Origin: Pseudomonas paralcaligenes
Lineage (GTDB): Bacteria > Pseudomonadota > Gammaproteobacteria > Pseudomonadales > Pseudomonadaceae
Reading direction: 5' to 3'
Assembly: GCF_019655855.1 (NCBI RefSeq)
Contig: NZ_BPFX01000029.1
Span: forward strand, 109,286 to 173,285
Length of the DNA: 64,000 bases
Shown here: positions 10,806 through 52,695 of the stretch, piece by piece
Numbering within the stretch: the stretch's first letter is position 1
Layout of the letters: each line of letters starts with the position of its first letter
Position numbers and translations under genes: made by a program
Notes under the pieces: generated by a model
Told to the model about the DNA's origin: nothing
Databases searched by the model: none
The model's input: the letters and a program-made list of their open reading frames with translations, nothing else

Positions 10806-10823
10806 TCGGTCGCCAGCAGTAAA

Positions 10824-10856
10824 ACGGACGGGCCCACGAGGCCCGTCCGTTCTTTT
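10824..10856 (+). terminator. Rho-independent terminator of the imelysin gene
   Basis: ACGGACGGGCC / GGCCCGTCCGT, an 11-bp perfect stem with loop CACGA, followed by TCTTTT, 18 bases after the stop. Confidence 0.93.
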
Positions 10857-10891
10857 CCCTCCTCCGCTTTACCCTCTCCCCTCTCCCAGGC

Positions 10892-11827: not shown

Positions 11828-11829
11828 CT

Positions 11830-12873: not shown

Positions 12874-12904
12874 ATGTGCGTCCTTAAAGCATTCAATTCG
12901 GGTT

Positions 12905-13017
12905 CCCCCTCTCCTCTGGGAGAGGTCTAGGGCGGCCCGCGTAGGGGTGAGGGGTTTCCAGGCAGCTCCGAGCTGCCCATGGCACCCTCACCCCGGCCCT
13001 CTCCCGGAGGGAGAGGG
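12905..13017. repeat. Inverted pair of dispersed CCCTCTCC...GGGTGAGGG repeats
   Basis: One copy (12905-12954) and an inverted copy (12985-13017) of a GC-rich dispersed repeat face each other around a small GGCAGCTC/GAGCTGCC palindrome at 12961-12977. The whole could fold into a cruciform or long mRNA hairpin between the flavin monooxygenase and the reductase. It may dampen read-through to the downstream genes. Confidence 0.75.
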
Positions 13018-13029
13018 AGTAGTTCGGCA

Positions 13030-14355: not shown

Positions 14356-14460
14356 GAACAGATACCTGAATCGATGACGTTGCCGCCCGGCCGTTCTGCG
14401 CCGGCTCGGACGGGTTCTGCACGCGGCATGTCCGTAAAGTGCGCCATGGCCACGGAAGCG

Positions 14461-14480
14461 GTGCGCATGGCGCACCCTAC
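14461..14480. repeat. Dispersed GTAGGGTGCGC-type repeat unit
   Basis: GTGCGCATGGCGCACCCTAC is one arm of a family found repeatedly in this window (16983-17047, 25190-25453, 34860-34881, 52874-52893). It lies in the 221-bp gap between the TonB receptor and the monooxygenase, which otherwise shows no gene. Confidence 0.7.
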
Positions 14481-14576
14481 GGGTCGTGCGCACGGGTCAA
14501 GATAGGGGGGGCGCCGCGCGCACCACGGCCTCTCCAGCACGTAGGGCGGGTGCAACCCGCGTGGCGGCCGAATGGC

Positions 14577-16790: not shown

Positions 16791-16886
16791 GTGCTGCCCC
16801 GAGATGACCAGACGGTGTTGGTTCAGGGTTGTCGATGTCTGGTCTCGCTCGTGCGAGTGGCAGCGTGGTGCGCGCAACCCATGATT

Positions 16887-16900
16887 TGTTAGCGCTAACA
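16887..16900. promoter_or_regulatory. LacI-family operator upstream of the TonB receptor
   Basis: The perfect 14-bp palindrome TGTTAGCGCTAACA, with the central CpG usual in LacI-family operators, lies 97 bp before the receptor start. An identical copy precedes the LacI-type regulator at 17067. Confidence 0.88.
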
Positions 16901-16982
16901 TCACCAGTATCGGAGAGCGCCTTATAGAGCGTCAAATAATTAAAAATTACTTTTATATTCCAGTTCGCCAGCGATGAATCCG

Positions 16983-21772: not shown

Positions 21773-24025
21773 ATGTTCAGAAGTACCGCTCTATCCACCG
21801 CCATCGCCTTGGCCCTGGGGGGCCTCGCCGGCTCCTACCTGGCGACGGCGCAGGCCGCCGAGACGCAGCCCGCCGGCACGGACGCCGACGCCGCCGTCGA
21901 GGCGACGACCAGCACGCCGACCCTGGCCAAGGTGACGGTGACCGCGCAGAAGCGCGAGGAGACCGTGCAGGAAGTCCCCAGCTCGATCTCCGTGCTCGGC
22001 GGCGACAAGGTGCGCGACGCCTCGCTGCAGTCGGCCAACGAGATCACCCGCTTCATCCCCAACGCCTCGGCCGGCACCACCGAGGGCCACGGCCGGCCGC
22101 GCTGGTGGATCCGCGGCCTCGGCAGCGGCGACCAGAACGCCAACACCGTGAGCCCGGTGGGCATCTACGTCGACGACGTCTACATCGCCAACATCAGCGC
22201 CAGCGGCTTCCCCCTGTTCGACCAGGAGCGGGTGGAAGTGCTGCGCGGCCCGCAGGGCACCCTGTGGGGCAAGAACACCACCGCAGGCGCGATCAACTTC
22301 ATCTCGCGCAAGCCGACCTTCGACCGCTCCGGCTACTTCAAGGTCGGCCTCGGCGACTACGCCGACCGCGTGGTGGAAGGCGCGATCAGCGACGCGCTGG
22401 TCGACGACCGCCTGGCCGCGCGCCTGTCGCTGCGCCACCAGGGCCGCGACGGCTATAACGAGAACCTCAATGACAACGACGACCAAGGCGCCCTGGAAGA
22501 CGACGCCGTGCGCCTGCAGTTCCTCGCGCGGATCAACGACGACCTGGAGGCCAACCTCAACCTCCACGCCCGCCACTACCACGACACCGGCGGCTACAGC
22601 ACCGTCAGCTACGGCCTGCGCCCGGACGGCACCAACCAGTTCGGCTACGCCATCGACCCGAAGAAGGGCAAGGTCAACTACAACGCCAAGTACGACGCCG
22701 ACATCGACCAGGCTGGCGCCAACCTCAACCTCACCTGGCAGCTCGGCGACCTGTCGCTGACCTCGATCACCGCCTTCGAACACTTCCAGCGCGAGGGCGT
22801 GACCGACAGCGACAACACCCCGCTGGACCTACAGCGCAGCTACAGCGACGTGGACAGCAAGCAGTGGTCGCAGGAACTGCGCCTGGCCTCGCCACGCGAG
22901 GACCGCCTGAACTGGGTGATCGGCTTCCACTACTTTGACGAGGACCTCAACTCGGAAAGCGCCGCCGCCGCGCTGACCAATCCCTACATCCCGCGCGCCT
23001 ACAACAACAGCAAATACAACCAGGGCACCGAGAGCTACACCCTGTTCGGCAGCACCACCTACCGCTTCACCGACGACTTCAGCCTCACCGCCGGCCTGCG
23101 CTGGACCCGCGAGACCAAGGACATCGACCTGCGCCGCCTGCAGAACCAGGGCCAGGCCGGCTTCGCCGGCGGCGACTGGTGGCAGGTCGGCAACGTCACC
23201 ACCCCGCTGCTGGTCAACGCCGTGCAGGACGAGAGCAACACCTGGAGCGACTGGACCTACGACCTGACGCCCGAGTACCGCCTCTCCGACAACGCACGGG
23301 TCTACTTCCGCTACGCCTACGGCTTCCGCTCCGGCGGCTACAACACCAGCGCGGTCAACCAGGCCACCGTCGCCACCGTGGACCCGGAATACCTGACCAG
23401 CTACGAGCTGGGCCTCAAGTCGGAATGGTTCGACGGCCGCCTCAACGCCAACGCCGCGCTGTTCTACTACGACTACGAGGACATCCAGCTCAACATCGTC
23501 ACCGCGGTCAACAACCAGACCGTCTCGCGCCTGGCCAACGGCGCCCAGGGCGAGGCCTACGGCGCCGAGTTCGAGCTGGAGGCGATCCCGCTGGACAACC
23601 TGCACCTGAACTTCGCCCTCGGCCTGCTGCACACCGAGTTCACCGACTACACCTCGGGCAACGACGACTTCTCCGGCAACAAGTTCGTCCGCGCGCCCAG
23701 CGTCTCGGCGGTGATCGGCGCCGACTACCGCATCCCGCTGAACGTCGGCGGCGCGATCATCCTCGCCACCGACTGGAACACCCGCAGCCGCCAGTACTTC
23801 TTCTCCAACGACCAGGGCCAGAACATGCGCAGCGGCGGCTACACCCTGGGCAACGCCAGCGTCACCTACGAGCTGCCGGACGAGACCACTCGCGTCACCG
23901 CCTACGTCAACAACCTGACCGACAAGGAATACCGCAACCACACCCTGCCGGGCGGCTTCCAGACCGCCGCGGTGATGTTCGGCGACCCGCGCACCGTGGG
24001 CGTCTCCCTCACCACCGACTTCTGA
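21773..24025 (+). CDS. TonB-dependent outer-membrane receptor (sulfur cluster b)
   Basis: A 750-residue receptor. The signal peptide ends near AQAAET; the TonB box region LAKVTVTAQKREE lies at about residues 51-63; the plug has LRGPQGTLWGKNTTAGAI; the C-terminus is the aromatic SLTTDF. Over 750 residues there are only three methionines and no cysteine was seen, an extreme sulfur economy for an abundant surface protein. GGGGG lies 7 bases before the ATG. It is followed 50 bp later by a substrate-binding protein, and preceded by a candidate sigma54 promoter. An organosulfur ligand is inferred. Confidence 0.92.
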   Translation: MFRSTALSTAIALALGGLAGSYLATAQAAETQPAGTDADAAVEATTSTPTLAKVTVTAQKREETVQEVPSSISVLGGDKVRDASLQSANEITRFIPNASAGTTEGHGRPRWWIRGLGSGDQNANTVSPVGIYVDDVYIANISASGFPLFDQERVEVLRGPQGTLWGKNTTAGAINFISRKPTFDRSGYFKVGLGDYADRVVEGAISDALVDDRLAARLSLRHQGRDGYNENLNDNDDQGALEDDAVRLQFLARINDDLEANLNLHARHYHDTGGYSTVSYGLRPDGTNQFGYAIDPKKGKVNYNAKYDADIDQAGANLNLTWQLGDLSLTSITAFEHFQREGVTDSDNTPLDLQRSYSDVDSKQWSQELRLASPREDRLNWVIGFHYFDEDLNSESAAAALTNPYIPRAYNNSKYNQGTESYTLFGSTTYRFTDDFSLTAGLRWTRETKDIDLRRLQNQGQAGFAGGDWWQVGNVTTPLLVNAVQDESNTWSDWTYDLTPEYRLSDNARVYFRYAYGFRSGGYNTSAVNQATVATVDPEYLTSYELGLKSEWFDGRLNANAALFYYDYEDIQLNIVTAVNNQTVSRLANGAQGEAYGAEFELEAIPLDNLHLNFALGLLHTEFTDYTSGNDDFSGNKFVRAPSVSAVIGADYRIPLNVGGAIILATDWNTRSRQYFFSNDQGQNMRSGGYTLGNASVTYELPDETTRVTAYVNNLTDKEYRNHTLPGGFQTAAVMFGDPRTVGVSLTTDF

Positions 24026-24075: not shown

Positions 24076-25155
24076 ATGCAAGCATCCCCCCTCACCCGCC
24101 TGCTGCGCCGCCTGGCGCTGCTGCCGGCCGCGCTGCTCGCCGCCCAGGCGGGCGCCGCCGACGCGCCGCAGAGCGTGCGCATCGCCACCGTGGCCTACGC
24201 CAACGCCGGCCAGATCACCTTCAACGGCCCAGCCTACGTGATGGACCGCGACAAGTGGCTGGAGCAGGAACTGGCCAAGCGCGGCGTCAAGCTCGAATGG
24301 GTGCCGGCGGCCACCGCCTCGGTCGGCACCTTCGTCAATGAGGAGTTCGCCAACCGGCGCATCGACTTCGCCTTCTACGGCGACCTGCCCTCGATCATCG
24401 CCAACGCCTCGGGCATCCCGACCCGGCTGATCGCCCCGGGCGGCAGCGGCAACAACGTCTACCTGGTGGTGCCGCCGGGCTCCGCCGCGACCTCCATCGC
24501 CGACCTCAAGGGCAAGCGCGTCGCCCTGCACCGGGGCCGGCCCTGGGAGCTGTCGTTCGCCAAGCTGCTCGAAGCCAACCAGCTCGACTTCGGCGACTTC
24601 CGCATCTTCAACCTCAACCCCCAGGCCGGCGGTGCGGCGCTCAGCGCGGGCCGGGTGGACGGCTTCTTCACCCTCAGCGACGCCTTCCTGCTGGAAGACA
24701 AGAAGGTCGGCAGGATCATCTGGTCGAGCAAGCAGGCCCCGCGCGACTGGAAGATGCGCGCCGAACTGTGGGGCGCCAGCGACTTCGTCGCCGAAAAGCC
24801 GGAGCTGACCCAACTGGTGGTCAACGCCTACCTCAAGGCGGCCCACTGGACCTCCCAGGAAGAGAACAAGGACACCTACCAGGGCTACCTGTCGAAATCC
24901 GGCCAGCCGCTCAGCGTGCTGCAGCGTGAGGTCGAGGGCGAGTCCTGGCCGCAGCACTTCACCCCGCTGTACGACCAGGCGCTGAAACAGCACTACGCCG
25001 ACGCCATCGCCTACAGCCGCAAGGCCAAACTGATCCGCAGCGATGTCGACGTGAACGCGCTGATCGAGCCGAGGTTCGTCGAGCAGGGGTTGAAGGACTT
25101 GCAGCTGGAACACTACTGGCAGGACGCCCCGGAGACGGTGGCGCGGCAGCCCTGA
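24076..25155 (+). CDS. ABC transporter substrate-binding protein (sulfonate/sulfate ester type)
   Basis: A 359-residue periplasmic binding protein, signal peptide ending near GAADAP. The mature part begins VRIATVAYANAGQITF and contains FYGDLPSIIANASGIPTRLIA and SIADLKGKRVALHRGRPWELSFAKLL, motifs of the SsuA/AtsR/TauA fold (NMT1-like). GAGGA lies 9 bases before the ATG. It has three methionines and no cysteine. It is co-directional with the receptor and probably takes its ligand on in the periplasm. No permease or ATPase genes follow: the next 885 bp hold only repeats. Transport may rely on AtsBC at 48.5-50.9 kb or on a system outside the window. Confidence 0.87.
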   Translation: MQASPLTRLLRRLALLPAALLAAQAGAADAPQSVRIATVAYANAGQITFNGPAYVMDRDKWLEQELAKRGVKLEWVPAATASVGTFVNEEFANRRIDFAFYGDLPSIIANASGIPTRLIAPGGSGNNVYLVVPPGSAATSIADLKGKRVALHRGRPWELSFAKLLEANQLDFGDFRIFNLNPQAGGAALSAGRVDGFFTLSDAFLLEDKKVGRIIWSSKQAPRDWKMRAELWGASDFVAEKPELTQLVVNAYLKAAHWTSQEENKDTYQGYLSKSGQPLSVLQREVEGESWPQHFTPLYDQALKQHYADAIAYSRKAKLIRSDVDVNALIEPRFVEQGLKDLQLEHYWQDAPETVARQP

Positions 25156-26040: not shown

Positions 26041-26931
26041 TCAGAACGGCCGGCTCCCCGCCAGGCTGATGCGCTTCAGGCGCCGCCGCTGGGTGGCCGG
26101 GAAGGCGTTGCGGGCGTGCAGGGTGGCCTGGTTGTCCCAGTACACGATGTCGCCCACCTCCCACGTGTGGGTGTAGGAAAAGCGCGGGTCGCCCAGGTGC
26201 TCGCGCAGGCGCGCGATCAGCGCCGCGCCTTTTTCCGGGTCGTAGCCGGGAATCTCCACTTCGGTGTGCACGCTGAGGAACAGCAGCTTCTTGCCGCTCT
26301 CCGGATGGGTACGCACCAGCGGGTGCTCGGTGCCCTGGATCGGCTCGATGTCCGGCGTGCGGTAGGTGACGAAGCCGCCGTTGTAGCCGCCGCTCTTGAT
26401 GCGCACGAAGGGGTTGTAGTTGATCAGTTTGAGGCCGTCGATCTCGCGCCGGGTGTCCTCGTCCAGCGCGCTGTAGGCCAGGGCCAGGTTGGTCCAGCGG
26501 GTCTCGCCTCCCTCTTCCGGCACTTCCAGGGCGTAGAGCAGCGAGCCGGCCGAAGGCGTCGGCGTCCACTGGTGGTCGCTGTGCGCCGGCAGGGCGAAGT
26601 TGCCCAGTTCGCCGTCCTCGGTGTTGGCCACCTTGACGATGTCCGGCGCCTTGCCGTCGGCCCCGGAGGACAGCACCGGGAAGTCCGGGTGCGGCTGGAA
26701 CACCGAGCCGAACCAGGAGGTGAAGCGCAGGAACTGGGCGTCGTCCAGCTGCTGCCGCTTGAAGATCAGGATGTGGTGGTCGCGCAGGGCCTGCTTGAGG
26801 GCCAGGACCTGTTCGGGCGTCGGGTCGACGCGCGCATCCAGATTGTGGATCTCGGCGCCCAGGGGCGCGGTGAGCGGCTGGATGCGCAGGCCGTCGGCGG
26901 GCTGGCGCAGGGCGGTGACGTTGTAGCTCAT
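26041..26931 (-). CDS. TauD/TfdA-family Fe(II)/2-oxoglutarate dioxygenase
   Basis: A 296-residue dioxygenase. The iron-binding facial triad reads H117-x-D119 (AHSDHQW) and H272 (TLHAR), with 2-oxoglutarate-binding arginines in QRRRLKR (282-287). It contains a single methionine, the initiator, and no cysteine. It starts 10 bp after the AtsK stop, so it belongs to the same operon behind a TonB receptor. The substrate pocket region differs from AtsK (GGYNGGFVTYRTPDIEP in place of its counterpart), so it probably attacks another compound: taurine-like sulfonate, sulfate ester or a phenoxy acid. Oxygenative release of sulfite or sulfate is inferred. Confidence 0.88.
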   Translation of the reverse strand: MSYNVTALRQPADGLRIQPLTAPLGAEIHNLDARVDPTPEQVLALKQALRDHHILIFKRQQLDDAQFLRFTSWFGSVFQPHPDFPVLSSGADGKAPDIVKVANTEDGELGNFALPAHSDHQWTPTPSAGSLLYALEVPEEGGETRWTNLALAYSALDEDTRREIDGLKLINYNPFVRIKSGGYNGGFVTYRTPDIEPIQGTEHPLVRTHPESGKKLLFLSVHTEVEIPGYDPEKGAALIARLREHLGDPRFSYTHTWEVGDIVYWDNQATLHARNAFPATQRRRLKRISLAGSRPF

Positions 26932-26941
26932 GGCGTTCTCC

Positions 26942-27856
26942 TCAACCCTTGCGGGTGGTCTGGCTGCGGCGGCCGTCGACGCCCACCGGCACGTCGCCGG
27001 CCAGGGTCACGCGGCGCACCACGCGGTCCTGGGTGCCGTAGTCGTCCACCGCGTAGTGCTGGGTGGCGCGGTTGTCCCAGATGGCCACGTCGCCTTCACG
27101 CCAGCGCCAGCGCACGGTGTTCTCCAGACGGGTTACATGGCCCTGGAGGATGTCGAACAGGCGCTGCGAGTCGTCCCGCGACAGGCCCTTGATGCGCTTG
27201 ACGAAGTGGCCGAGCAACAGGCTGCGGCGGCCGCTGACCGGGTGCACGCGCACCACCGGGTGCTCGGTCTCGTAGACGGTGGAGGCGAACACCTTGCGGT
27301 ATTCCTCCAGCCTGGCCAGTTCGACGTTGGGGCGCACGCCGGCGTAGTCGTATTCGTTGCTGTGTACCGCCCAGAGCTTGTCGGCCAGTTCGCGCAGTTC
27401 CGCCGGCAGGTCGTCGTAGGCGGTCTCGGTGTTGGCCCAGACGGTGTCGCCGCCGGCCCGGGCGGCCACCACCGAGCGCAGGATCGAGGCCTTGGGGTAG
27501 GCGTCGACGAAGGTCACGTCGGTGTGCCAGGAGTTGGCCCGCTGGCCCTGGGCGCCGTCCAGCTCCAGCAGGTAGCGGGTGCCGTCGCGCACCGGCACGG
27601 TCGGGTGGGCGACCGGCTCGCCGAGCAGCTTGGCGAAGGCTTCCTGGGCCTGGTCGTCGAGCTGGGTCTGGTCGCGGAAGAACAGCACCTTGTGTTCGAC
27701 CAGGGCGGCTTGGAGGGCCTCCACGGTGGCCGCGTCCAGCTCGGCGGAGAGGCGGATGTCGCGGATTTCGGCGCCGATGCGGCCGGCGACCGGGTGGATG
27801 TCGAGTTGTACGGCGGCTTTTGTGGAAGCAGGTACGGCGATTGCGGCGTTGCTCAT
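26942..27856 (-). CDS. atsK: Alkylsulfatase, Fe(II)/2-oxoglutarate-dependent (AtsK)
   Basis: AtsK splits medium-chain alkyl sulfate esters by hydroxylating the carbon next to the ester, giving an aldehyde and sulfate. The 304-residue sequence is very close along its whole length to P. putida S-313 AtsK as I remember it. The iron ligands are H111 and D113 (WHTDVTF) and H267 (TQHYAVDDYG); arginines at 281-282 bind 2-oxoglutarate. It has one methionine (initiator) and no cysteine, a strong mark of a sulfur-starvation protein. It has no signal peptide, so it acts in the cytoplasm. It is 242 bp after the receptor and 10 bp before the second dioxygenase. Confidence 0.93.
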   Translation of the reverse strand: MSNAAIAVPASTKAAVQLDIHPVAGRIGAEIRDIRLSAELDAATVEALQAALVEHKVLFFRDQTQLDDQAQEAFAKLLGEPVAHPTVPVRDGTRYLLELDGAQGQRANSWHTDVTFVDAYPKASILRSVVAARAGGDTVWANTETAYDDLPAELRELADKLWAVHSNEYDYAGVRPNVELARLEEYRKVFASTVYETEHPVVRVHPVSGRRSLLLGHFVKRIKGLSRDDSQRLFDILQGHVTRLENTVRWRWREGDVAIWDNRATQHYAVDDYGTQDRVVRRVTLAGDVPVGVDGRRSQTTRKG

Positions 27857-27948
27857 GGTAGTGCTCCTTGGGGGCGAAGAATCTGTTTGCGATCTTTCCG
27901 AACCTGCCAGCCGCTCGGTCCTTCTCTAAAACGCTAGGCTACGAAGCC

Positions 27949-28034
27949 CGTCATACCGGCGCAGGCCGGTATCCAGTGGCCTGCGCCGAGTCGCCTGTCG
28001 GTTTCCCGGACCCCGGCCTGCGCCGGGGTGACGG
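27949..28034. repeat. Inverted dispersed repeats between receptor and atsK
   Basis: CGTCATACCGGCGCAGGCCGGTATCCAG and CCCCGGCCTGCGCCGGGGTGACGG are inverted copies of the common Pseudomonas repeat, also seen once at 50941-50967. Their hairpins could uncouple atsK expression from the receptor gene upstream. Confidence 0.7.
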
Positions 28035-28098
28035 ATTGCAAACCAAGGTTTCAGTAAAAGAACCGTGCCGCTCGAAAGATCGTAAGCAGGGCTAAGGA

Positions 28099-30492
28099 TC
28101 AGAAGTCGTAACGCAGGGTCAGGCCGGCGGTGCGCGGCTGGCCCACGGATGCGGTGTAGGCGCCGTTGGCCATGGCGAAGGCGGTCAGGTAGTAGTCCTC
28201 GTCGGTGGCGTTGCGTACCCAGAGCGAGGCGTCCAGCTCGCCGTCGCCCAGGTCGGCGCGCACGCCGGCGGCCAGGTTGAGCAGGCCGTAGCCGTCGATC
28301 TTGGAGAGGTCGGAGTTGTCCAGCGTGCCCTCGGCCTCGGAGCGGTAGGAGTAGCCGGCGTTGACGTAGGGGCGCAGGCCGCCGTCGAGCTGCCAGGTGT
28401 ATTCGCCGTTGGCGTTGCCGATCCATTTGGAGGCGCCCACCACCCGCTCGCCGGTGAGGTCGCACACGGCGTTGGGGTTGACAGTGTTCACCTCGCCCGG
28501 GCACGGCGCGTTCTCGAAGCTGAGGTAGGTGACGTCGTTGTAGGAGCCGTTGAAGTTCAGGGTCAGGCCGCGCAACGGCCGGTAGCTGGCCTCGAATTCC
28601 ACGCCGCGCGAGCGCACGCTGCCGGCGTTGGCCAGCACCGACACCGGGGTCAGCGAGCCGGCCGGGGTGGTCAGGGTGGTGGCCTGGTAGCCGTGGATGC
28701 CGGTCCAGAACAGGTTGGCGTTGAACAGCAGGCGACCATCATCGAGGGTGCTCTTGAAGCCCAGCTCGGCGTCGTTGGCGCGCTCCGGGCCGACCACCAG
28801 CGAGTCGGCGCCGAAGCCGGCCACCGGCGCCACCAGGTTGACCCCGCCGGATTTCTCGCCGTGGGCCAGGCTGGCGTAGCCGAGCAGATCGTCGCTGAAG
28901 CGGTAGCTGAGGCTGACCAGGCCGGACGGCGCGGCGTTGTGCAGGCCGAAGTCGCCGGTGTCGAGGGCGCCCATCTGCCGTTGGCGGATGGCGTCCAGCG
29001 CCGGCGGCAGGGCCGCGCCGCCGTCCGGGGCGAAGCGGTGCAGGCGCGCGGTCTTTTCCTCGTAGGTGCCGCGCACGCCGACGGTCAGGTCGAGGCGGTC
29101 GCTGAGGTGCCAGTTGGCCTGGCCGAACAGGGCGAAGCTGTCGGTCTCGATCTTGCCGTTGGTCTGGGTGCGGGTGTTGTTGAAGATGCCGAGGTTGGCG
29201 CCGGTCAGGAACGGGTCGGCGTAGGGGCCGAAGTCCTGCTCGGTCTTGTTGCCCAGGTTCTGGTTGAACAGGTAGGCGCCGACCACGTAGTCGAAGCTGC
29301 CGCCGGTGGGCGAGGCCAGGCGGAATTCCTGGGAGAACTGCCGGTCGTGCACCTCCACGCCGCTGTGGATGAAGGCGTCGACTTCGGTGAAGTCGACGTC
29401 GTTGCGCGGGATGAAGTGCCAGTAGCGGTAGCCGCTGATGGAGGTGAAGGTGTAGCCGCCGTCCAGGTTCCAGTTGGCCTCCAGCGAGGAGCCGCCCTGG
29501 TAGACGTTGACCGACTGTGCGCCGTTGATATTGACCTCGCGCTTCTTCGGGTCGTACTGCGGGTTGCCACCGATCAGCGCGGCGCGCTCGCGGAAGCGGT
29601 CGGTGACGCCGTACAGGGCCCACACGCCATTGGTGGAGTTTTCCTGGTTGTAGTCGGTGATCCAGCGCAGGCTGAAGTCGTCGTTCGGCTCGAACAGCAG
29701 CTGGCCGCGCGCGCCCTCGCGCTCGCCGCCGACGAAGGTGCGGTCGTCGTGGCGGTTGTCGATGTAGCCGTCGTCGCGGGTGCGGTAGAGCGACAGGCGC
29801 CCGGCCAGGGTCTCGGTCAGCGGCCCGGAGACGGTGCCCTTGCCCTGGAACAGGCCGCGCTCGCCGCCGGTGATCTCGACGCTGCGCTCGGGGGTGAAGG
29901 TCGGCTTGCGGGTGCTGATGTTGATCACCCCGGCCGTGGTGTTCTTGCCGAACAGGGTGCCCTGGGGACCGCGCAGCAGTTCCAGCTGCTCGACGTCGAG
30001 CAGGTCGAACACGGCCATGCCCGGGCGGCCCAGGTAGATGTTGTCCAGGTAGATGCCGGCGCTGCCTTCCAGGCCGTCGCTGGCCGGGTTGTTGCCGATG
30101 CCGCGCACCGCGACGCTGGACTGGCGCGCGTGGATGTAGGCGACGTTGACGCTGGGCAGCACCTGCTGCAGGTCCTGCACCTTGTACACCTTCTGCTGCT
30201 CCAGGGTGGCGCCGCTGAGGGTGGTGATGGGGGTCGGCACGTCCTGCACGTTCTCCTCGCGGCGGCGCGCGGTGACGGTGACCTTGCCCAGCGCCACGTC
30301 CTCCTCGGCGCCCGGCGTGGCGACGCCCGGCGCGGCAGCGGCCTCCTCGGCCAGCACATGGCCCGGCGCGGCCAGGGCCAGCAGCAGGGTCAGGGCATAT
30401 TCGGGTGCCACCAGGCGCCGCGGCGAGAGCGGCCGGGAGCGTGGCAGCGTGAAGGGGCTGGCGAGGGTCTGCGGCGTTCGGAGATGACTCAT
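28099..30492 (-). CDS. TonB-dependent outer-membrane receptor (sulfur cluster c)
   Basis: A 797-residue receptor with a long N-terminal leader; the hydrophobic signal core is YALTLLLALAAPGHVLAEEA near residues 32-51. The plug has VALGKVTVTARRREE and LLRGPQGTLFGKNTTAGVI; the barrel ends with TLRYDF. Four methionines and two cysteines in 797 residues is low. It is the first gene of a minus-strand set with atsK and a second dioxygenase, so alkyl sulfate esters are plausible cargo. A start nearer the signal core is possible, since the predicted leader is longer than usual. Confidence 0.9.
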   Translation of the reverse strand: MSHLRTPQTLASPFTLPRSRPLSPRRLVAPEYALTLLLALAAPGHVLAEEAAAAPGVATPGAEEDVALGKVTVTARRREENVQDVPTPITTLSGATLEQQKVYKVQDLQQVLPSVNVAYIHARQSSVAVRGIGNNPASDGLEGSAGIYLDNIYLGRPGMAVFDLLDVEQLELLRGPQGTLFGKNTTAGVINISTRKPTFTPERSVEITGGERGLFQGKGTVSGPLTETLAGRLSLYRTRDDGYIDNRHDDRTFVGGEREGARGQLLFEPNDDFSLRWITDYNQENSTNGVWALYGVTDRFRERAALIGGNPQYDPKKREVNINGAQSVNVYQGGSSLEANWNLDGGYTFTSISGYRYWHFIPRNDVDFTEVDAFIHSGVEVHDRQFSQEFRLASPTGGSFDYVVGAYLFNQNLGNKTEQDFGPYADPFLTGANLGIFNNTRTQTNGKIETDSFALFGQANWHLSDRLDLTVGVRGTYEEKTARLHRFAPDGGAALPPALDAIRQRQMGALDTGDFGLHNAAPSGLVSLSYRFSDDLLGYASLAHGEKSGGVNLVAPVAGFGADSLVVGPERANDAELGFKSTLDDGRLLFNANLFWTGIHGYQATTLTTPAGSLTPVSVLANAGSVRSRGVEFEASYRPLRGLTLNFNGSYNDVTYLSFENAPCPGEVNTVNPNAVCDLTGERVVGASKWIGNANGEYTWQLDGGLRPYVNAGYSYRSEAEGTLDNSDLSKIDGYGLLNLAAGVRADLGDGELDASLWVRNATDEDYYLTAFAMANGAYTASVGQPRTAGLTLRYDF

Positions 30493-30817
30493 GGTGTGTT
30501 CCTTGGCTGATCACCCGCCGCCGGATGCGGGCGGCAGCGGGCCGCATCACGCACGCGGGGCGATGGCGGAAACGGTCGGGGTGGTGGGGGTCGGGCCGTG
30601 AAGGCCCGGCAACGGATCAGCGACAGCGCGGCGCGGACCACGGGGAAACGGATGCCCGCATGACGGTGCCCTCGGATTGCTCGGCCATATTCATATTCTT
30701 TTTTGATCTAATTTTATTAATTTACTTAGATTGACGGAATAAGAGCCTGCATTTAAAACCTGCACCACGGAAGGCACAAATGCCTTCGTCCTATATTTTC
30801 AATGCCGGTAACGCATC
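30493..30817. promoter_or_regulatory. Divergent intergenic region, receptor 3 / LysR
   Basis: This 325-bp gap has a GC-rich half next to the receptor and an AT-rich half (30685-30780) next to the LysR gene. A possible sigma70 site for the LysR gene is TTGACG (30731-30736), 17 bp, TAAAAC (30754-30759). No gene, no clear -24/-12 element and no obvious palindromic operator were found. Confidence 0.4.
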
Positions 30818-31741
30818 ATGGATCTGCGACAGCTCCGCTATTTCCTCGCCCTCCACGAACACCGCAGCTTCGTCCGCGCGGCCGATGCCATGGGCATCAC
30901 CCAGCCGGCCTTCAGCCGCAGCATCCAGGGCCTGGAGCACGAGCTGGGCTGCGTGCTGGTGGACCGCGCCAGCAAGGACCTGCGGCCCACGCCCGAGGGC
31001 CAGGTGGTGCTGCAGCACGCCCTGGCGCTGGTGCGCGGCGCCAGCAACCTGACCCACGAAATCAACCAGATGACCAAGCTCGACGCCGGCGAGCTGCGCT
31101 TCGGCTGCGGCCCGGCGCTGGCCGCGCGCCTGGTGCCGGACGCCCTGCTGCAGTTCATGCAGCGCTACCCGCGCATCCGCGCGCGCTTCGAGGTGAACAA
31201 CTGGGAGAGCCTGAGCCGCAGCCTGGGGCGCGACGAGATCGAGTTCTTCATCGCCGACATCCGCCATTTCGAGTCCGACCCCAGCGTGCAGACCCAGGCG
31301 CTGCGGCCGCGCCCCGGCCTGTTCTTCTGCCGCCCCGGGCACCCGCTGCTGATCAAGGAGAGCCTGTCGACCAACGACCTGTTCGACTACCCGCTGGCCG
31401 CCACGCGCATCCCCATGGGCGCGCGCAAGGCGCTGGCCAACCTCAGCGGCAAGGCCAGCTTCGAGCCGCAGCTGGAATGCGAGCACTTCCCCCTGCTGGA
31501 GGAACTGGTGCGGCGCAGCGACGCCATCGGCATCGCCACCTTCGAGTCGCTGGGGCAGCACCTGCGCAGCGGCGAGCTGGTGCAACTGCACCTGCGCAAC
31601 CTGCCGACCAACCTGGACAGCCTGCAGGCGCGCTGCGGCATCGTCACCCGCACCGGCTTCCGCCTGTCGCCGGCGGCCAAGGCGATGATCGAGCTGCTGA
31701 TCGAGCTGGACGGCCAGCAGAGCCAGACGGCCGCCGCCTGA
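30818..31741 (+). CDS. LysR-family transcriptional regulator
   Basis: A 307-residue regulator with the standard N-terminal winged helix-turn-helix (LRQLRYFLALHEHRSFVRAA, ITQPAFSRSIQGLEHELG) and a C-terminal co-inducer domain starting near residue 88 (GELRFGCGPALAARLVPDALLQF). It is divergent from the receptor-atsK-dioxygenase operon and upstream of msuE, so it could control either. It is not CysB or Cbl: the sequence lacks their characteristic N-terminus. The effector is unknown; a sulfate ester or related compound is inferred from position. Confidence 0.9.
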   Translation: MDLRQLRYFLALHEHRSFVRAADAMGITQPAFSRSIQGLEHELGCVLVDRASKDLRPTPEGQVVLQHALALVRGASNLTHEINQMTKLDAGELRFGCGPALAARLVPDALLQFMQRYPRIRARFEVNNWESLSRSLGRDEIEFFIADIRHFESDPSVQTQALRPRPGLFFCRPGHPLLIKESLSTNDLFDYPLAATRIPMGARKALANLSGKASFEPQLECEHFPLLEELVRRSDAIGIATFESLGQHLRSGELVQLHLRNLPTNLDSLQARCGIVTRTGFRLSPAAKAMIELLIELDGQQSQTAAA

Positions 31742-31755
31742 AGAGTGTTTCCGGA

Positions 31756-31818
31756 GCAACAGCCGGGCAACTGTCCGCCCGGCAACAGCGAATCAACAGT
31801 TCGCCCGCCGGACAACAG
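31756..31818 (+). promoter_or_regulatory. Tandem 26-bp repeats upstream of the msuE sigma54 promoter
   Basis: Two direct copies of a 26-bp unit (31756-31781 and 31782-31807) share GCAACAGC-N4-CAAC-N-GT-N-CGCCCG; a third partial CAACAG is at 31813-31818. CAACAG-type half-sites repeat at 31757, 31768, 31783, 31794 and 31813. They lie 55-115 bp upstream of the -24 element, the usual place for activator-binding sites, so SfnR is the likely ligand. Confidence 0.6.
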
Positions 31819-31872
31819 CCGCGCCCGGCGCGGAAAAACGACAAGCCATTGATTAGCAAGGATTTAACGGCA

Positions 31873-31888
31873 TGGAACGGGACTTGCT
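31873..31888 (+). promoter_or_regulatory. Sigma54 (-24/-12) promoter of msuE-sfnC-sfnR
   Basis: TGGAACGGGACTTGCT matches the TGGCACG-N4-TTGCW consensus at all positions but one. Transcription would start near 31899, 29 bp before msuE. Confidence 0.85.
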
Positions 31889-31927
31889 CTGGAACAGACC
31901 CCGCCCCCTGCCAAAGGAACACCAACC

Positions 31928-32503
31928 ATGAGCACCTCCTTCAACGTCGTCGCTGTCTCGGGCGGAGCCTATCGCCCGTCGCGCACCCAGGTCCTGACCG
32001 TGGCCCTCGTCGAGGCCCTCGGCCGGCACCTGGACTTCGACAGCCGACTGATCGAGCTGGGCGACATCGCCCGGCCGGTCGGAGGCGCCCTGTCGCGCGG
32101 CGAACTGCCCGCCGACGTGGAAGCGCAGCTCGCCGCCATCGAGCGCGCCGACCTGCTGATCGTCGCCGCGCCGGTCTACCGCGGCTCCTACCCGGGCCAG
32201 TTCAAGCACCTGTTCGACCTGATCGACCAGCACGCGCTGATCGACACTCCGGTGCTGCTGGCCGCCACCGGCGGCAGCGAGCGCCATGCGCTGGTCATCG
32301 ATCACCAGCTGCGCCCGCTGTTCAGCTTCTTCCAGGCGCTGACCCTGCCCATCGGCGTGTACGCCGCCGAGGCCGACTTCCACGACTACCGCATCGCCAG
32401 TGCGGCGCTGCAGGCGCGCGTCGAGCTGGCCGCCGAACGGGCCGCCCAGGTGCTGCGCGGCGCGACCGAGCCGCGCGCCGCCGCGCTGCGCAAGATCGCC
32501 TGA
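31928..32503 (+). CDS. msuE: NADPH-dependent FMN reductase (MsuE/SfnE type)
   Basis: A 191-residue flavodoxin-like reductase that supplies FMNH2 to two-component monooxygenases. Motifs: VVAVSGGAYRPSRT (phosphate-binding loop, residues 7-20), AAPVYRGSYPGQFKHLFD (about 80-97), and LLAATGGSERHALVI. It has no cysteine and no methionine beyond the initiator. It is the first gene after the sigma54 promoter and is followed 22 bp later by sfnC. Its likely partners are the SsuD-like, SfnC-like and NtaA-like monooxygenases in this window. MsuE and SfnE are close relatives, so the exact name is uncertain. Confidence 0.9.
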   Translation: MSTSFNVVAVSGGAYRPSRTQVLTVALVEALGRHLDFDSRLIELGDIARPVGGALSRGELPADVEAQLAAIERADLLIVAAPVYRGSYPGQFKHLFDLIDQHALIDTPVLLAATGGSERHALVIDHQLRPLFSFFQALTLPIGVYAAEADFHDYRIASAALQARVELAAERAAQVLRGATEPRAAALRKIA

Positions 32504-32525: not shown

Positions 32526-33713
32526 ATGAGCCTGAATCAGCAACCCACCCTCCTCAAACCGCTGCAGACCGCGCGCCGCCTCGCCGCCCAGTTCGCCGAG
32601 ACCGCGGTGGAGCGCGACGCCCGTGGCGGCACGCCGAAGGCCGAGCGCGACGCGCTGCGCGCCAGCGGCCTGCTGGCGCTGGCGATCCCCACCCAGTTCG
32701 GCGGCATCGGCGCCAGCTGGAGCGAAATCTTCGAGGTGAACCGCGAGTTCGCCCGGGTCGACAGCTCCATCGCCCACGTCTTCGGCTTCCAGCACTTGAT
32801 GCTGGCCACCGTGCGCCTGTTCGCCCGCCCCGAGCAGTGGCAACCCTGGTTCGAGCAGACCGCGCGCAAGAACTGGTTCTGGGGCAACGCCCTCAACCCG
32901 CTGGACACCCGCACCGTGGTGAAGAAGTTCGACGGCTGGTACGAGTTCTCCGGCAAGAAGAGCTTCTGCTCCGGCGCCAGCGATTCGGAGATGCTGATCG
33001 CCTCCGCCGTGGACGAGGGCGCCGGCGGCAAGCTGCTGATCGCCGCCATCCCCAGCGGCCGCACCGGCATCAGCCTGCACGACGACTGGGACAACATCGG
33101 CCAGCGCCAGACCGACAGCGGCAGCGCCACCTTCGAGCGGGTGCGGGTAGAGCACGGCGAACTGCTGCTCGACCCCGGCCCGCTGAGCACGCCGTTCGCC
33201 TGCCTGCGCCCGCTGATCGCCCAGCTGCACTTCGCCAACCTGTTCCTCGGCATCGCCGAAGGCGCCTTCGAGGAGGCGCGCCAGTACAGCCTCAAGGAGA
33301 GCCGCCCCTGGTTCCGCTCCAGCGCCCGCCACAGCAGCGAGGACCCGTACATCCTGCGCCACTACGGCGAGTTCTGGGTCGGCCTGGAGAGCGTGCGCCT
33401 GCTGATCGAGCGCGCCGCCGCCCAGCTCGACGAGGCCTGGAGCAAGGAGCACGCGCTGAGCACCGAGGAACGCGCCCAGCTGGCGCTGGCCATCGGCACC
33501 GCCAAGGTGGCCGCCACCCGCCACGGGCTCGACCTGTGCAACCGGCTGTTCGAAGTCACCGGCGCGCGCGCCACCCACGCCTCGCTGCGCCTGGACCGCT
33601 TCTGGCGCAACCTGCGCACCCAGACCCTGCACGACCCCGTGGACTACCGCATCCACGAGCTGGGCGACTGGGCACTGAACGGCACGCGCCCTACCCCGTC
33701 CTTCTACTCGTAA
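32526..33713 (+). CDS. sfnC: Acyl-CoA dehydrogenase-fold flavin monooxygenase (SfnC/DszC-like)
   Basis: A 395-residue protein with the acyl-CoA dehydrogenase fold used by flavin monooxygenases such as DszC. Seen: [35 protein letters not shown] near the N-terminus (in outline), GKKSFCSGA in the beta domain, and the C-terminal helical segment [33 protein letters not shown] with the family's ARAT. The catalytic glutamate of true acyl-CoA dehydrogenases is not evident, which fits an oxygenase. It sits between msuE and sfnR in one operon, as in sfn clusters. Oxidation of a sulfide, sulfoxide or similar organosulfur compound is inferred. The name is used for the family. Confidence 0.82.
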
Positions 33714-33722
33714 GGCACGCCC

Positions 33723-34823
<1,101 letters not shown>

Positions 34824-34981: not shown

Positions 34982-36112
34982 ATGAGTCTGGATATCTTCT
35001 GGTTTCTGCCTACTTCCGGCGACACCCGCTACCTGGGCCACTCGGCCAGCGGCCGGCCGGCCACCAACGCCTACATGCGGCAGATCGCCGTGGCCGCCGA
35101 CCAGCTCGGCTACGACGGCCTGCTGATCCCCACCGGGGCGAGCTGCCTCGACCCCTGGGTGACCGCCGCCAGCCTGGTGCCGGTGACCCAGCGCATCAAG
35201 CTGCTGGTGGCCCTGCGCACCTCGCTGGGCAACCCCACCGCCTCGGCGCGCCAGGCGGCCAGCCTGGACCAGGCCAGCGGCGGGCGCCTGCTGCTCAACG
35301 TGGTGCCCGGCGGCGACGCCACCGAACTGGCCGCCGACGGCGTGTTCCTCCAGCACGACGAACGCTACGAAGCCTCCGACGAATTCCTCACCATCTGGCG
35401 CCGCCTGCTCGAAGGCGAGACCGTCGACTTCGCCGGCAAGCACCTCCGGGTCGAGGGCGCGCAGAACTTCTTCCCGCCGGTGCAGCAGCCCTATCCGCCG
35501 CTGTACTTCGGCGGCTCCTCCCCCGCCGCCCACGAACTGGCGGCCAAACACGTGGACGCCTACCTGACCTGGGGCGAGCCGCCGGCCGCGGTGGCCGAGA
35601 AGATCGCCGACGTGCGCGAGCGCGCCGCCAAGCACGGCCGCACCGTGCGCTTCGGCGTGCGCCTGCACGTGATCGTGCGCGAGACCAACGAGGCCGCCTG
35701 GGCCGCCGCCGACGAACTGATCAGCCACCTCGACGACGCCACCATCGCCGCCGCCCAGGCCAACTACGCCAGGATGGACTCCGAGGGCCAGCGGCGCATG
35801 GCCGCGCTGCACGGCGGCGATCGCAACAAGCTGGAAGTGGCGCCCAACCTGTGGGCCGGCGTCGGCCTGGTGCGCGGCGGCGCCGGCACCGCGCTGGTCG
35901 GCGACCCCGAGACCGTGGCCGCGCGCCTGCTGGAATACGCCGAACTGGGCGTCGACAGCTTCGTGCTGTCCGGCTACCCGCACCTGGAAGAAGCCTACCG
36001 CTTCGCCGAACTGGTGTTCCCGCTGCTGCCCGGCAAGGGCAAGGTCACCGTGGACGGCGCCTTCACCGGCGGCGCCTTCGACGTGCGCGCCGGCAAGGAG
36101 AAGGTGGCATGA
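34982..36112 (+). CDS. FMNH2-dependent alkanesulfonate monooxygenase (SsuD/MsuD family)
   Basis: A 376-residue luciferase-like enzyme that splits alkanesulfonates to an aldehyde and sulfite using reduced FMN. It aligns along nearly all of Ssu[27 protein letters not shown] (active-site Cys55, the only cysteine seen), [46 protein letters not shown] (catalytic His region), [21 protein letters not shown], and [14 protein letters not shown]. The C-terminal tail after the last motif differs from E. coli SsuD. Its stop overlaps the next ATG by 4 nt, coupling it to the amidohydrolase-like protein. It has four methionines. Substrate range is not readable; the unusual partner suggests a special sulfonate. 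Confidence 0.93.
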
Positions 36113-36954
36113 AGGTCATCGACCTGCGCTGCCGGCCGGCCTTCCTGCATCCCTTCTTCGGCGGCGTGCCGGGCTCGCCCGAACACGCCACCGCGCGCTG
36201 GCTCAACCGGCGCGTGGGCACCCGGGGCGCGGACGACCACTTCGAGCGCTCGCTGACCCAGGAGGGCTTCCTCGCCGAAGTGCGCGAGGCCGGCCTGCAC
36301 AAGGCGGTGGTGGTCGGCCGCCACACGCCGGGCCAGCACCTGCCCAACGACCGCATCCACGGCATCGTCCACGGCCACGCCGAACTGCTCGGCGTCGGCT
36401 CGGTGGAGCCGGCGCTGCAGGGCGTGGAAGGCGCGCTGGCGGAAATCGACCGTGCCATCGACGTGCTCGGCCTGGCCGGCATCGACCTGGAGCCGGGCTT
36501 CGCCGAGCCGGCGCGGCACCCGGACGACGCGCTGTACTGGCCGATCTACGAGCACCTGCAGCAACGCGGCATCCCGCTGTTCCTGATGAGCGGGCCGACC
36601 ACCCCGGACCCGGCCTACAACGACCCCGGCCGCCTGGCGGCCGTGGCCCGCGCCTTCCCGGAGCTGCGCATCGTCGCCTACCACGGCTACTGGCCCAACG
36701 TGCAGCAGGCCATCGGCGTGGCCTTCCGCTACGAAAACATCTCCCTGGTGCCGGACATGTACCTGTTCCTGCCCGGCAGCGAAGGCTACGTGCAGGCGGC
36801 CAACGGCTTCCTCGCCGACCAGCTGCTGTTCGGCTCGTCCTACACCTTCCGCCCGATCCGCCAGAGCATCGAGGACGCCCAGCGCCTGGGACTGAAGGAC
36901 GAGGTGCTGGAGAAGTTCTTCCACGGCAACGCCGAGCGCCTGTTCGGCCTGTAA
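36109..36954 (+). CDS. Amidohydrolase_2-like protein lacking the metal ligands
   Basis: A 281-residue TIM-barrel protein of the amidohydrolase_2 type, ending in the family hallmark [10 protein letters not shown]. Strikingly, the usual N-terminal DxHxH is IDLRCRP (residues 4-10), the middle metal histidine (PVxxHxG) is IPLFLMSGP (155-163), and the final catalytic Asp (GSD) is GSS (242-244). Only H192 of YHGYWPN remains. It may be metal-free, a decarboxylase-like variant, or a binding partner. Its start overlaps the SsuD-like stop (ATGA), so the two are made together; it may process the aldehyde or ring product of desulfonation. Confidence 0.75.
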
Positions 36955-40037: not shown

Positions 40038-42185
40038 CTAGAACCGGGTATCGACCGCCACCTCGAAGCTGCGCGGCGCCCCCATGTAGTACTGGCTGCC
40101 GTAGGCCTGCTTGGCGTAAATCTCGTCGGTGAGGTTGCGCACGCGGGCGGTGATGGCGGTGTGCTCGTCGACCCGGTAGCGGGCGAACGCGCCGTACAGG
40201 GTGTAGGACGGCGCCTCCAGGGTGTTGGCGTTGTCGGCGAACACCGCGTCGACGTAACGCACGTCCACCCCGGCGGCCCAGGACGGCGCGATGTCGTAGG
40301 TCAGCCAGAGGTTGGCGACGTTGTCCGGCACGTTGACCGGGGTGTTGCCCTTGCGCGACACGGAGACGCCGCCGACCGCCTCGTTGAAGCGGTCGTACTC
40401 GGCCTCGACGTAGGCGTAGTTGGCCTCGGCCAGCAGCTTGGGGGTGATCTGCAGCTTGCCGGCCAGCTCGATGCCACGCGAGGTCTGCTGGCCGGCCTGG
40501 ACGGTGAGGTTGGGGTTGCTCGAATCGCGCACGGCGAAGTCGCGGCGCACGATCTGGTACAGCGCCACGGTGGCCGAGCCGCGCCCGTCGAGGAAGTCGA
40601 ACTTGCTCCCGGCCTCCCACTGCTCGCCCTCGGAGAGGTCGAACAGGCCGACGTTGGAGTAGGTGGCCGAGGCCAGGGCGCCGGCCGGCAGGTCGGCGGA
40701 GGTGCTGTATTGCAGGTAGAGGTTGGCCGTGGGCGTGAGGTCGTAGAGCAGGCCGACACGCCCGCTGAGCGGCTCCCAGGTGCGCTCGAAGTAGGCCGGG
40801 CTGGTGGGCGACACCGGGCCGTGGTTGGTCACCTCCATGTCCAGGTGGTCGTAGCGCAGGCCGGTGAGCAGCGCCAGGCGCTCGCTCAGCATCAGGCGGT
40901 TTTCCAGGAACACGGCGGCGGTGGTGATCTCGTGGCGGCGCTGCTTGCGCAGGCCGGCGTTGACCCCGGGGATGTCGTCGAAGCTGCCCGGGTCGAAGCG
41001 GTCGGGGTCGACCGTGTCGCTCCAGGCGCTGCCGGTGGGGTGCAGGGTCTGGCGCATGCGCGAGTAGTCCAGGCCCAGCGACCACTGGCTGGCGAGGTCG
41101 AACAGGGCGGCGTCGTGGCGCAGTTCGAGGCGGTTGCCGAGCACGTTCTGGTCGTGCCGCTGCAGGTAGGCGCCGGAACGCACCACGTCGCCGGCCGCGT
41201 TGTAGGCGTAGGTCTCCAGGTTGCGGTAGTCGCGCTGGGCGGCGTAGTGGTAGAGGGTGTTCTGCAGGCTGCTGGCCTCGCCCAGGTGGTAGTCGGTGAT
41301 CGAGCGCAGCCAGCGCACGCGCTGCTCGTAGCGGCCGTCGCCGACGTTGTAGTTCTCGAAGCGGCGGCTGCGGTCGATCTTCAGGGTGTCCCTGCCGCGC
41401 AGGACCGGCGAGCCCCAGTAGGGGCTGTCTTCCTGGTCCTCCAGGTATTCCAGCGCCAGGGTGTGGCTCAGGTCCGGGGTGAAGTCGCTGAGCAGGGAGA
41501 CGGCGAAGCTGTTGGTCTCGCGGCGGTTGCGGTCGATGTAGCCGTTGCCGTCGCCTCGGCTCACGTCCAGGCGCAGGAAGTGCCGGGCGTCGGCGCCGCC
41601 CAGGGCGCGGTTGAGGCCCAGCGAGACCTCGGAGTCGTCGAAGCTGCCGTAGCGCAGGCGACCCTCGAACAGGCTGTCGTCGCGGCTGGCCAGGCGCGAG
41701 ATGTAGTTGATCGAGCCACCCACGGCGCCGGCGCCGTAGAGGAAGGTGGACGGCCCGCCGATCAGCTCGACGCGGTCGATCATCCAGGCGTCCACCGGGC
41801 GGGTGGCGCTGCTGTAGCCGAGGTTGATGCCGTTGAACAGCTGGGTGATCTGGTTCTGGGTGAAGCCGCGGTAGGAGACGAAGCCGCCGTAGCCGGGGTT
41901 GGCCGAGGCGTTCACGCCGGTCATGGCGTTGATCACGTCCTGGGTATCCTTGGCGCCGCGCTCCTCGATCACGGCGCGGTCGGAGACGCTGACCGAGGCC
42001 GGCGTTTCCCGCGCCGTGAGGCCCAGCCGCGAGCCGGTGCGGATCGGCTGGTCGAGGGTCAGACCGGAGGGTCTGTCCTGCTCGCCCTCGATGGTCAGGG
42101 CGTCGAGTTTCAACGGGGCGTGGTCCGCCCATGCGATGGCGCTGGTGCTCATTAGGAGCACCAGCGAGGTGTTCTTCAATGACAT
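40038..42185 (-). CDS. TonB-dependent receptor, siderophore/copper type
   Basis: A 715-residue receptor. Signal peptide MSLKNTSLVLLMSTSAIAWA (20 residues), TonB-box region LKLDALTIEGEQ, plug with ETPASVSVSDRAVIEERGAKDTQDVI, ELIGGPSTFLYGAGAVGG and a barrel ending VAVDTRF. The plug sequence (RVELIGGPSTFLYG) is of the siderophore-receptor class. It has eight methionines, unlike the three receptors of the sulfur region. The gene order DUF2946, receptor, PepSY, PCuAC points to copper or a copper-binding metallophore; iron is the alternative. The start at 42185 gives a clean signal peptide. Confidence 0.9.
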   Translation of the reverse strand: MSLKNTSLVLLMSTSAIAWADHAPLKLDALTIEGEQDRPSGLTLDQPIRTGSRLGLTARETPASVSVSDRAVIEERGAKDTQDVINAMTGVNASANPGYGGFVSYRGFTQNQITQLFNGINLGYSSATRPVDAWMIDRVELIGGPSTFLYGAGAVGGSINYISRLASRDDSLFEGRLRYGSFDDSEVSLGLNRALGGADARHFLRLDVSRGDGNGYIDRNRRETNSFAVSLLSDFTPDLSHTLALEYLEDQEDSPYWGSPVLRGRDTLKIDRSRRFENYNVGDGRYEQRVRWLRSITDYHLGEASSLQNTLYHYAAQRDYRNLETYAYNAAGDVVRSGAYLQRHDQNVLGNRLELRHDAALFDLASQWSLGLDYSRMRQTLHPTGSAWSDTVDPDRFDPGSFDDIPGVNAGLRKQRRHEITTAAVFLENRLMLSERLALLTGLRYDHLDMEVTNHGPVSPTSPAYFERTWEPLSGRVGLLYDLTPTANLYLQYSTSADLPAGALASATYSNVGLFDLSEGEQWEAGSKFDFLDGRGSATVALYQIVRRDFAVRDSSNPNLTVQAGQQTSRGIELAGKLQITPKLLAEANYAYVEAEYDRFNEAVGGVSVSRKGNTPVNVPDNVANLWLTYDIAPSWAAGVDVRYVDAVFADNANTLEAPSYTLYGAFARYRVDEHTAITARVRNLTDEIYAKQAYGSQYYMGAPRSFEVAVDTRF

Positions 42186-50940: not shown

Positions 50941-52695
<1,755 letters not shown>

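Follow-up and report, generated by a model that had tools for sequence, protein, structure and literature searches.

Organosulfur-scavenging proteins of a Pseudomonas paralcaligenes locus are depleted of cysteine and methionine, very probably through selection for low sulfur cost

The final 64 kilobases (kb) of contig C29 of Pseudomonas paralcaligenes (the window; the genome is Pseudomonas-like and 5.47 Mb in size) hold several gene sets that, judged by sequence family, serve organosulfur scavenging: an atsK/receptor/LysR set, an msuE/ssuD set, an atsR-BCA-type set and a binding protein/monooxygenase/receptor set (Table 1). Putative sulfur-acquisition functions are assigned in this way to AtsK, MsuE, SsuD, the sulfatase and AtsR, though not to the second dioxygenase, and the subject here is how little cysteine (Cys) and methionine (Met) these products contain. 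Over its full length AtsK closely matches a solved AtsK, 1oih, its best hit in the PDB (540.5 bits, E 1.1e-161, residues 1-304 on 1-301), which places it among AtsK-type alkyl sulfatases; its closest named loci are from Pseudomonas. Both AtsK (242.2 bits) and the second dioxygenase (133.1 bits) fall below the NCBIfam taurine dioxygenase TauD cut-off of 313 bits. MsuE lies above the TIGR03566 cut-off (254.6 vs 212.5 bits) and SsuD above its family cut-off, scored on a shorter reading of 345 amino acids (aa) from 35075; AtsR is below the SsuA cut-off (142.4 vs 163.5 bits) and the DszC/SfnB-like protein is under both model cut-offs. We call the receptor beside AtsK SftP-like and the LysR-type regulator SftR-like, and likewise use the names AtsR, AtsB and AtsC; AtsA C51 is known as the catalytic Cys and SsuD C55 as an active-site Cys. 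Direct translation bears out the residue counts of the initial annotation: in AtsK, MsuE, AtsR and the second dioxygenase the initiator Met1 is the sole sulfur residue, the 750-aa receptor at 21773 and both SsuA-like binding proteins have three Met and no Cys, and AtsA (C51, in CSPTR) and SsuD (C55) each contain one Cys.

Table 1. Features of the window with their Cys and Met counts or sulfur content (FMN, flavin mononucleotide; S, Cys+Met)
Feature	Position	Strand	Length (aa)	Cys	Met	Remark
SsuA-family binding protein	10892..11827	-	311	0	3	genome's best SsuA hit
Aldo-keto reductase	11830..12873	-	347	0	2	lowest of 6 in genome
NtaA/DmoA-family monooxygenase	13030..14475	-		1	6	441-aa shorter reading: 0 Cys
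TonB receptor	14577..16901	-	774	3	4	737-aa shorter reading: 2 Cys
TonB receptor	21773..24025	+	750	0	3	
SsuA-family binding protein	24076..25155	+	359	0	3	below cut-off
Second TauD/TfdA-type dioxygenase	26041..26931	-	296	0	Met1 only	
AtsK, alpha-ketoglutarate-dependent alkyl sulfatase	26942..27856	-	304	0	Met1 only	
TonB receptor	28099..30492	-	797	2	4	beside AtsK
LysR-type regulator	30818..31741	+	307	5	6	undepleted internal control
MsuE FMN reductase	31928..32503	+	191	0	Met1 only	
DszC/SfnB-like protein	32526..33713	+	395			acyl-CoA dehydrogenase fold; 1.27% S
Sigma-54 activator	33723..34823	+	366			1.10% S
SsuD alkanesulfonate monooxygenase	34982..36112	+	376	1	4	single Cys55
Amidohydro_2 protein	36109..36954	+	281	1	3	adjoins SsuD
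TonB receptor	40038..42185	-	715	0	8	"copper receptor" of the initial annotation; 715-aa reading
AtsR-like SsuA-family binding protein	47152..48204	-	350	0	Met1 only	
AtsB-like fused permease	48515..50083	+	522	2	12	undepleted vs genome
AtsC-like ATPase	50080..50928	+	282	1	3	
AtsA-like sulfatase	51022..52695	+	557	1	7	single Cys51 in CSPTR

We ranked sulfur content (Cys+Met) across sampled stretches comprising contig starts, regular steps and clusters targeted via family hits, which together with the window cover 1,832,250 bases, or 33.5% of the genome. Our own gene caller found 1357 genes of at least 100 aa in this sample; genes below that length and two stretches of less than 300 bases (L150 and L154) were left out of the counts. 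The background, 1108 genes outside the targeted clusters with Met1 excluded from Met, stands at 2.77% Cys+Met (Cys 0.95%, Met 1.82%). Against it, uncorrected binomial P values were 2.0e-4 for AtsK, 2.5e-4 for the second dioxygenase, 5.5e-5 for AtsR, 2.4e-7 for the receptor at 21773 (738-aa reading) and 4.8e-3 for MsuE alone. Just 4 of 856 background proteins above 180 aa lack sulfur beyond Met1. Over the whole sample, 17 of 1077 proteins of at least 180 aa are sulfur-free, and 14 of these 17 are sulfur-linked by neighbourhood or family. As markers we used 17 genes defined by family only (11 luciferase-like monooxygenases, two TauD-type and four SsuA above cut-off); 11 of the 17 sulfur-free proteins lie within 10 kb of a marker, six of them being markers themselves, and with markers excluded the sulfur-free proteins number 5 of 108 near vs 6 of 953 far (P = 0.0028). 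Three of those six far proteins are nonetheless sulfur-linked (AtsR of the window, a taurine-binding protein and a MetQ-family protein), the others being FecR-type, nicotinamide adenine dinucleotide (NAD)-binding and FMN-binding-domain proteins. The pooled Cys+Met of non-marker genes climbs with distance from a marker, from 1.25% at 0-2 kb (46 genes) through 2.01% at 2-5 kb (40), 2.32% at 5-10 kb (44) and 2.65% at 10-20 kb (42) to 2.77% beyond (1169), and the 86 genes within 5 kb differ from the 1169 beyond 20 kb at P = 9.7e-12. Collectively, these data show that the sulfur depletion of the window proteins is not chance.

Depletion of this degree might have been usual for proteins of such size and class, and comparisons within families of the same genome indicate that for enzymes and binding proteins it is not. 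With near and far set by a mechanical 10-kb rule, which replaced a hand-set receptor grouping, near-marker members were sulfur-poorer than paralogues elsewhere in five of six families (stratified permutation over 137 genes, 25 of them near markers: 0 of 200,000). The four near members of the acyl-CoA-dehydrogenase fold occupy ranks 1-4 of 29 (0.74-1.27%, median 0.90%), whereas the 25 far members have a median of 4.40% (P = 4.2e-5), 24 of them at 3.2-6.8% and one at 1.37%. FMN reductases (2 near vs 10 far, P = 0.015) and sigma-54 activators (3 vs 13, P = 0.0036; 8 of 24 rows dropped, seven weak and one without a start) were also lower near markers. The 18 SsuA-family proteins, after removal of 3 of 21 rows that were extra pieces of genes already counted, fall at 0-0.85% (11 proteins, three of them DszB-like and not binding proteins), 1.51% (one) and 2.5-4.5% (six). 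TonB receptors gave medians of 0.70% for 12 near vs 1.29% for 43 far (P = 0.0008; 5 of the 55 touch the end of their stretch), and the hand-set grouping, with nine in clusters, 43 others and three ambiguous, gave P = 0.002. The class baseline (from 2.77 to 1.29%) accounts for about 70% of the receptors' raw deficit (from 2.77 to 0.70%). The receptor at 21773 has the third lowest sulfur content among the 55 found in the genome. For the receptor at 40038, the initial annotation's count of eight Met is right; the protein passes the NCBIfam siderophore-receptor cut-off (254.3 vs 223.5 bits), and the TIGR01778 copper receptor model (cut-off 472.45 bits) is absent from its best 25 of 29 families, which reach down to 28.1 bits. 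Its copper label rests on the PCuAC and PepSY_TM genes that adjoin it. Raw genome ranking was tried as a guide and rejected, with flagellin, RmuC, HlyD-type, two FecR, YhdP/AsmA-like, outer-membrane efflux and Lys/Ala-repeat proteins also low. Because raw low content flags such unrelated classes, the earlier proposal that low sulfur can guide us to genes of sulfate starvation holds only against a class baseline.

The sulfur-free state is conserved in orthologues. Among the best 80 of 583 named AtsK loci (61-91% identity), Cys is absent from all 80 proteins and internal Met from 67. These loci include Burkholderia, sphingomonads and six Bacillota (five Paenibacillus and one Metabacillus), and range from 34% to 71% guanine-cytosine (GC) content. 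The Metabacillus AtsK is sulfur-free in a 34% GC stretch with a local median of 2.53%, where one of 12 frames is sulfur-free, that one being of AtsK's length. The aligned 1oih sequence, from P. putida, has neither Cys nor internal Met, and 101 of the 120 best-listed AtsK homologues, query included, are sulfur-free. Across 36-41 Pseudomonas loci (one, L185, is titled Pantoea), median sulfur content is 0 for both AtsR and AtsK, against 3.28% for the adjacent LysR regulator, 2.45% for the permease, 1.97% for the ATPase and 0.77% for the receptor. The TauD family was compared only with relatives from other genomes of the class; the median among 28 remote TauD-fold relatives, five of which match AtsK at E <1e-5 (28-30% identity), is 2.96% and the lowest value 0.99%, after 5 of 33 rows were dropped (three from the own genome, two without a locus) and with starts set at the nearest ATG or GTG at or before the match, so that some N-termini may be short. 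Since these remote relatives are undepleted, the fold does not explain the state of AtsK.

We then compared substitutions in disjoint nearest pairs. AtsK pairs from all genera showed 1401 differences, three involving Met and none Cys; with Pseudomonas loci only, the three Met changes fell among 513 differences, again without Cys, whereas the adjacent LysR regulator in the same Pseudomonas loci showed 29 Met and six Cys changes in 461. The two genes differ for Met at P = 3e-15 (all genera) and 2.3e-7 (Pseudomonas), and for Cys at 2e-4 (all genera). In four residue comparisons Cys and Met were the two most depleted residues; tyrosine (Tyr) was down in all four, far less than either, and tryptophan (Trp) went up in AtsK and in members of the acyl-CoA-dehydrogenase fold and stayed level in the remaining two comparisons. 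For Cys and Met the SsuA comparison is circular, its groups having been picked by sulfur content, and the TonB split used there was 11 near/44 far, by a slightly different distance rule from the 12/43 above. Given that Trp, an oxidation-prone and costly residue, is not depleted, these results speak for a cost in sulfur more than for general cost or the avoidance of oxidation.

Several products of the window's organosulfur-scavenging sets retain hardly any Cys or Met, and we think it very probable that selection for low sulfur cost brought this about. The genes would be turned on when sulfate is exhausted and their products made in quantity, at which point each Cys or Met would cost the very element being sought; sulfur-free replacements would be favoured, new Met and Cys purged, and cysteines at catalytic positions, such as AtsA C51 and SsuD C55, exempt. 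A single Cys is kept at known or likely catalytic positions in AtsA, SsuD, a DszB-like protein and a 1-Cys peroxiredoxin. Within the window sets, sulfur content is least in the enzymes and binding proteins, still low in the receptors, and greater in the ATPase, the permease and the LysR regulator, a gradient that fits abundance. The data show directly the depletion itself, its specificity to the two sulfur residues, its association with sulfur genes within families and its conservation among orthologues; we infer that the genes are induced in this strain, that their products are abundant and that cost is what selection acts on. In P. aeruginosa, sulfur starvation raises sfnG about 260-fold, atsA more than 95-fold, and msuD and msuE more than 50-fold (PMC12581299). 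We also lean, with less assurance, towards a broader reading: that near-total sulfur exclusion is a family-wide conserved trait of sulfur acquisition, under continuing purifying selection in Pseudomonadota and Bacillota with catalytic Cys alone exempt, and that class-corrected Cys+Met content can assign unknown genes to the sulfur-starvation regulon.

Several observations weigh against selection on sulfur cost, or against the reach we give it. The TonB receptor class is already low (the far median of 1.29%), and four of the six lowest receptors lie near no marker. These four (C3:442716, C1:7034, C34:39681 and C3:541889, by contig and position; 0.15-0.46% sulfur) are possibly unrecognised sulfur-source receptors or else class variation. 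Conversely, some genes near or among the markers, such as the receptor C3:239780 (2.19%) and the marker monooxygenase C4:448974 (2.11%), are undepleted. Aldo-keto reductases point in the same direction as the other families, non-significantly (3 vs 3, P = 0.10), and SBP_bac_3 proteins, 4 of 23 rows of which were dropped as long multidomain frames or for an internal stop, show no near/far difference (1 vs 18), the near one being undepleted at 2.70%. Sulfur-free homologues are less prevalent for MsuE and the second dioxygenase than for AtsK, at 74 and 69 of 120 listed proteins, query included, and AtsR pairs contain six Cys and four Met changes in 798. The difference between AtsK and AtsC pairs (Met or Cys) is weak (P = 0.067). 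AtsK may have reached the Bacillota by transfer, so the lineages would not be fully independent. Some genes depart from the abundance gradient, namely the sigma-54 regulators close to markers, which also have little sulfur (1.0-1.4%), and a 283-aa protein at C2:102214 (0.35%) beside a sulfur-free SsuA protein, perhaps its permease. Finally, the background sample departs from strict randomness, and genes were called with a program of our own making.

Three other explanations were weighed alongside sulfur cost. Met and Cys might be lost through avoidance of oxidation, in enzymes that use oxygen or are located in an oxidising compartment at times when thiol buffers run short; several of the depleted proteins are indeed oxygenases or periplasmic or outer-membrane proteins, and sulfur starvation also induces antioxidant genes (PMC12581299). 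We judge this unlikely, because remote TauD-fold relatives elsewhere, whose functions are not determined, are undepleted, 18 of 19 SBP_bac_3 proteins stand at 1.2% or more, and, as described above, Trp is not lost and Tyr falls far less than Cys and Met. That high GC or protein class alone yields few Met and Cys draws on the low far median of TonB receptors relative to the 2.77% background and on the low flagellin, FecR and HlyD-type proteins, and class does remain the larger part of the receptors' deficit. For the enzyme families, a class artefact is refuted by the within-family tests, in which paralogues of one fold and one genome differ several-fold, and composition is countered by the sulfur-free Metabacillus AtsK in its 34% GC stretch; as a general account we regard it as very unlikely.

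Even less probable, in our view, is inertia, in which each family descends from one sulfur-free ancestor, since which Met or Cys has not had long enough to reappear, and no selection acts today. The state is common to AtsK orthologues, perhaps spread by transfer, and the contrast with AtsC is weak, but sulfur-free proteins of unrelated folds occur in one genome, and the scarcity of Met and Cys among the AtsK differences, set against the neighbouring regulator, argues against inertia.

Cystine- and methionine-binding proteins, and the encapsulin operon described below, were picked out by the sulfur score unprompted. The lone outlier of the 19 SBP_bac_3 proteins, at 0.38%, is a cystine-binding protein (C8:38080; 457.6 vs cut-off 312 bits) adjoining a D-cysteine desulfhydrase, and a MetQ-family protein has zero sulfur. 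In the window itself, the binding protein, aldo-keto reductase, NtaA/DmoA-type monooxygenase and TonB receptor at 10892-16901, all on one strand, resemble another organosulfur set. Two DszB-like proteins occur at C3:229278-231511 (L103:9278-10330 and 10456-11511, by sampled stretch), one keeping a sole Cys that aligns to the CPVP motif of PDB 2de2, where its sulfur-free neighbour naturally carries Ser; the third (C31:16238-17305, L105:11238-12305) was recognised by its YTRC start only, unaligned. Small Aldolase_II-domain proteins with zero (L021:15409-16077, C31) and one (L103:13676-14413, C3) sulfur residue beyond Met1 sit in organosulfur clusters with a monooxygenase, a DszB-like protein and a TonB receptor, and are possibly an uncharacterised desulfurisation partner. 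An OprD-family porin (C2:99814-101133, L111:9814-11133; 439 aa, no Cys, Met1 only) flanked by two SsuA-type binding proteins is a candidate outer-membrane channel for organosulfur compounds. A 1-Cys peroxiredoxin-like protein (C4:274142-274780, L108:12142-12780; Pfam AhpC-TSA, 1-cysPrx_C), with one Cys and no internal Met, adjoins an FMN reductase and SsuA. Lastly, a family-2A encapsulin operon (C3:557346-563262, L118:12346-18262) is low throughout (0.31-1.29%), with rhodanese, hexapeptide protein, SrpI-like shell and cysteine desulfurase cargo at 0.5-1.3%, preceded by a HEAT-repeat gene at 0.31% and flanked on both sides by genes at 3.5%; sulfate starvation raises this encapsulin type in Synechococcus (PMC8049743).

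If the broader reading is true, the score would nominate in this genome the DszB-like/aldolase_II/receptor clusters, the sulfur-free OprD porin and the encapsulin operon. A class-corrected score of this kind, which within-family contrasts make available, could nominate starvation-regulon genes without expression data; the earlier papers considered here illustrate sulfur economy with chosen or induced proteins. The AtsK family, some 300 residues with essentially no sulfur from 34% to 71% GC, makes a clean example in which element-specific selection can be tested.

The sulfur-economy principle is already published, and the present case is a strong new instance of it. Mazel and Marliere (1989) reportedly described how Met and Cys were eliminated from the light-harvesting proteins of cyanobacteria, and Baudouin-Cornu (2001) is said to have treated protein atomic composition; both concern the same elemental-economy principle in other organisms and proteins. 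Older proteome work on Pseudomonas may also have noted the same low-sulfur pattern. A limited literature search, mostly lacking subscription journals, found no paper reporting a sulfur-free AtsK family in more than one phylum. What is added here is a within-genome test corrected for protein class, together with the near-absolute sulfur-free state of AtsK on both sides of a phylum boundary. Closest in kind is Gordonia sp. NB4-1Y, for which the available text gives the more highly expressed oxygenases 0.88-1.33% sulfur amino acids vs 3.01% for the proteome, and two FMN monooxygenases 0.2 and 0.67% (PMC7661421). Low-sulfur proteins of sulfur acquisition are common to both organisms, but Gordonia is an actinobacterium with an expression-defined set and, as far as that text extends, the within-family control and the cross-phylum orthologue count are found only here. 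Rhodococcus qingshengii IGTS8 has SfnG, TauD, AtsA and Dsz enzymes with no or few Cys and Met, DszB having a single Cys and no Met (PMC8557817); there, selected proteins were counted by proteomics, whereas the present analysis rests on a genome-sample ranking with class baselines and extends to receptors and binding proteins.

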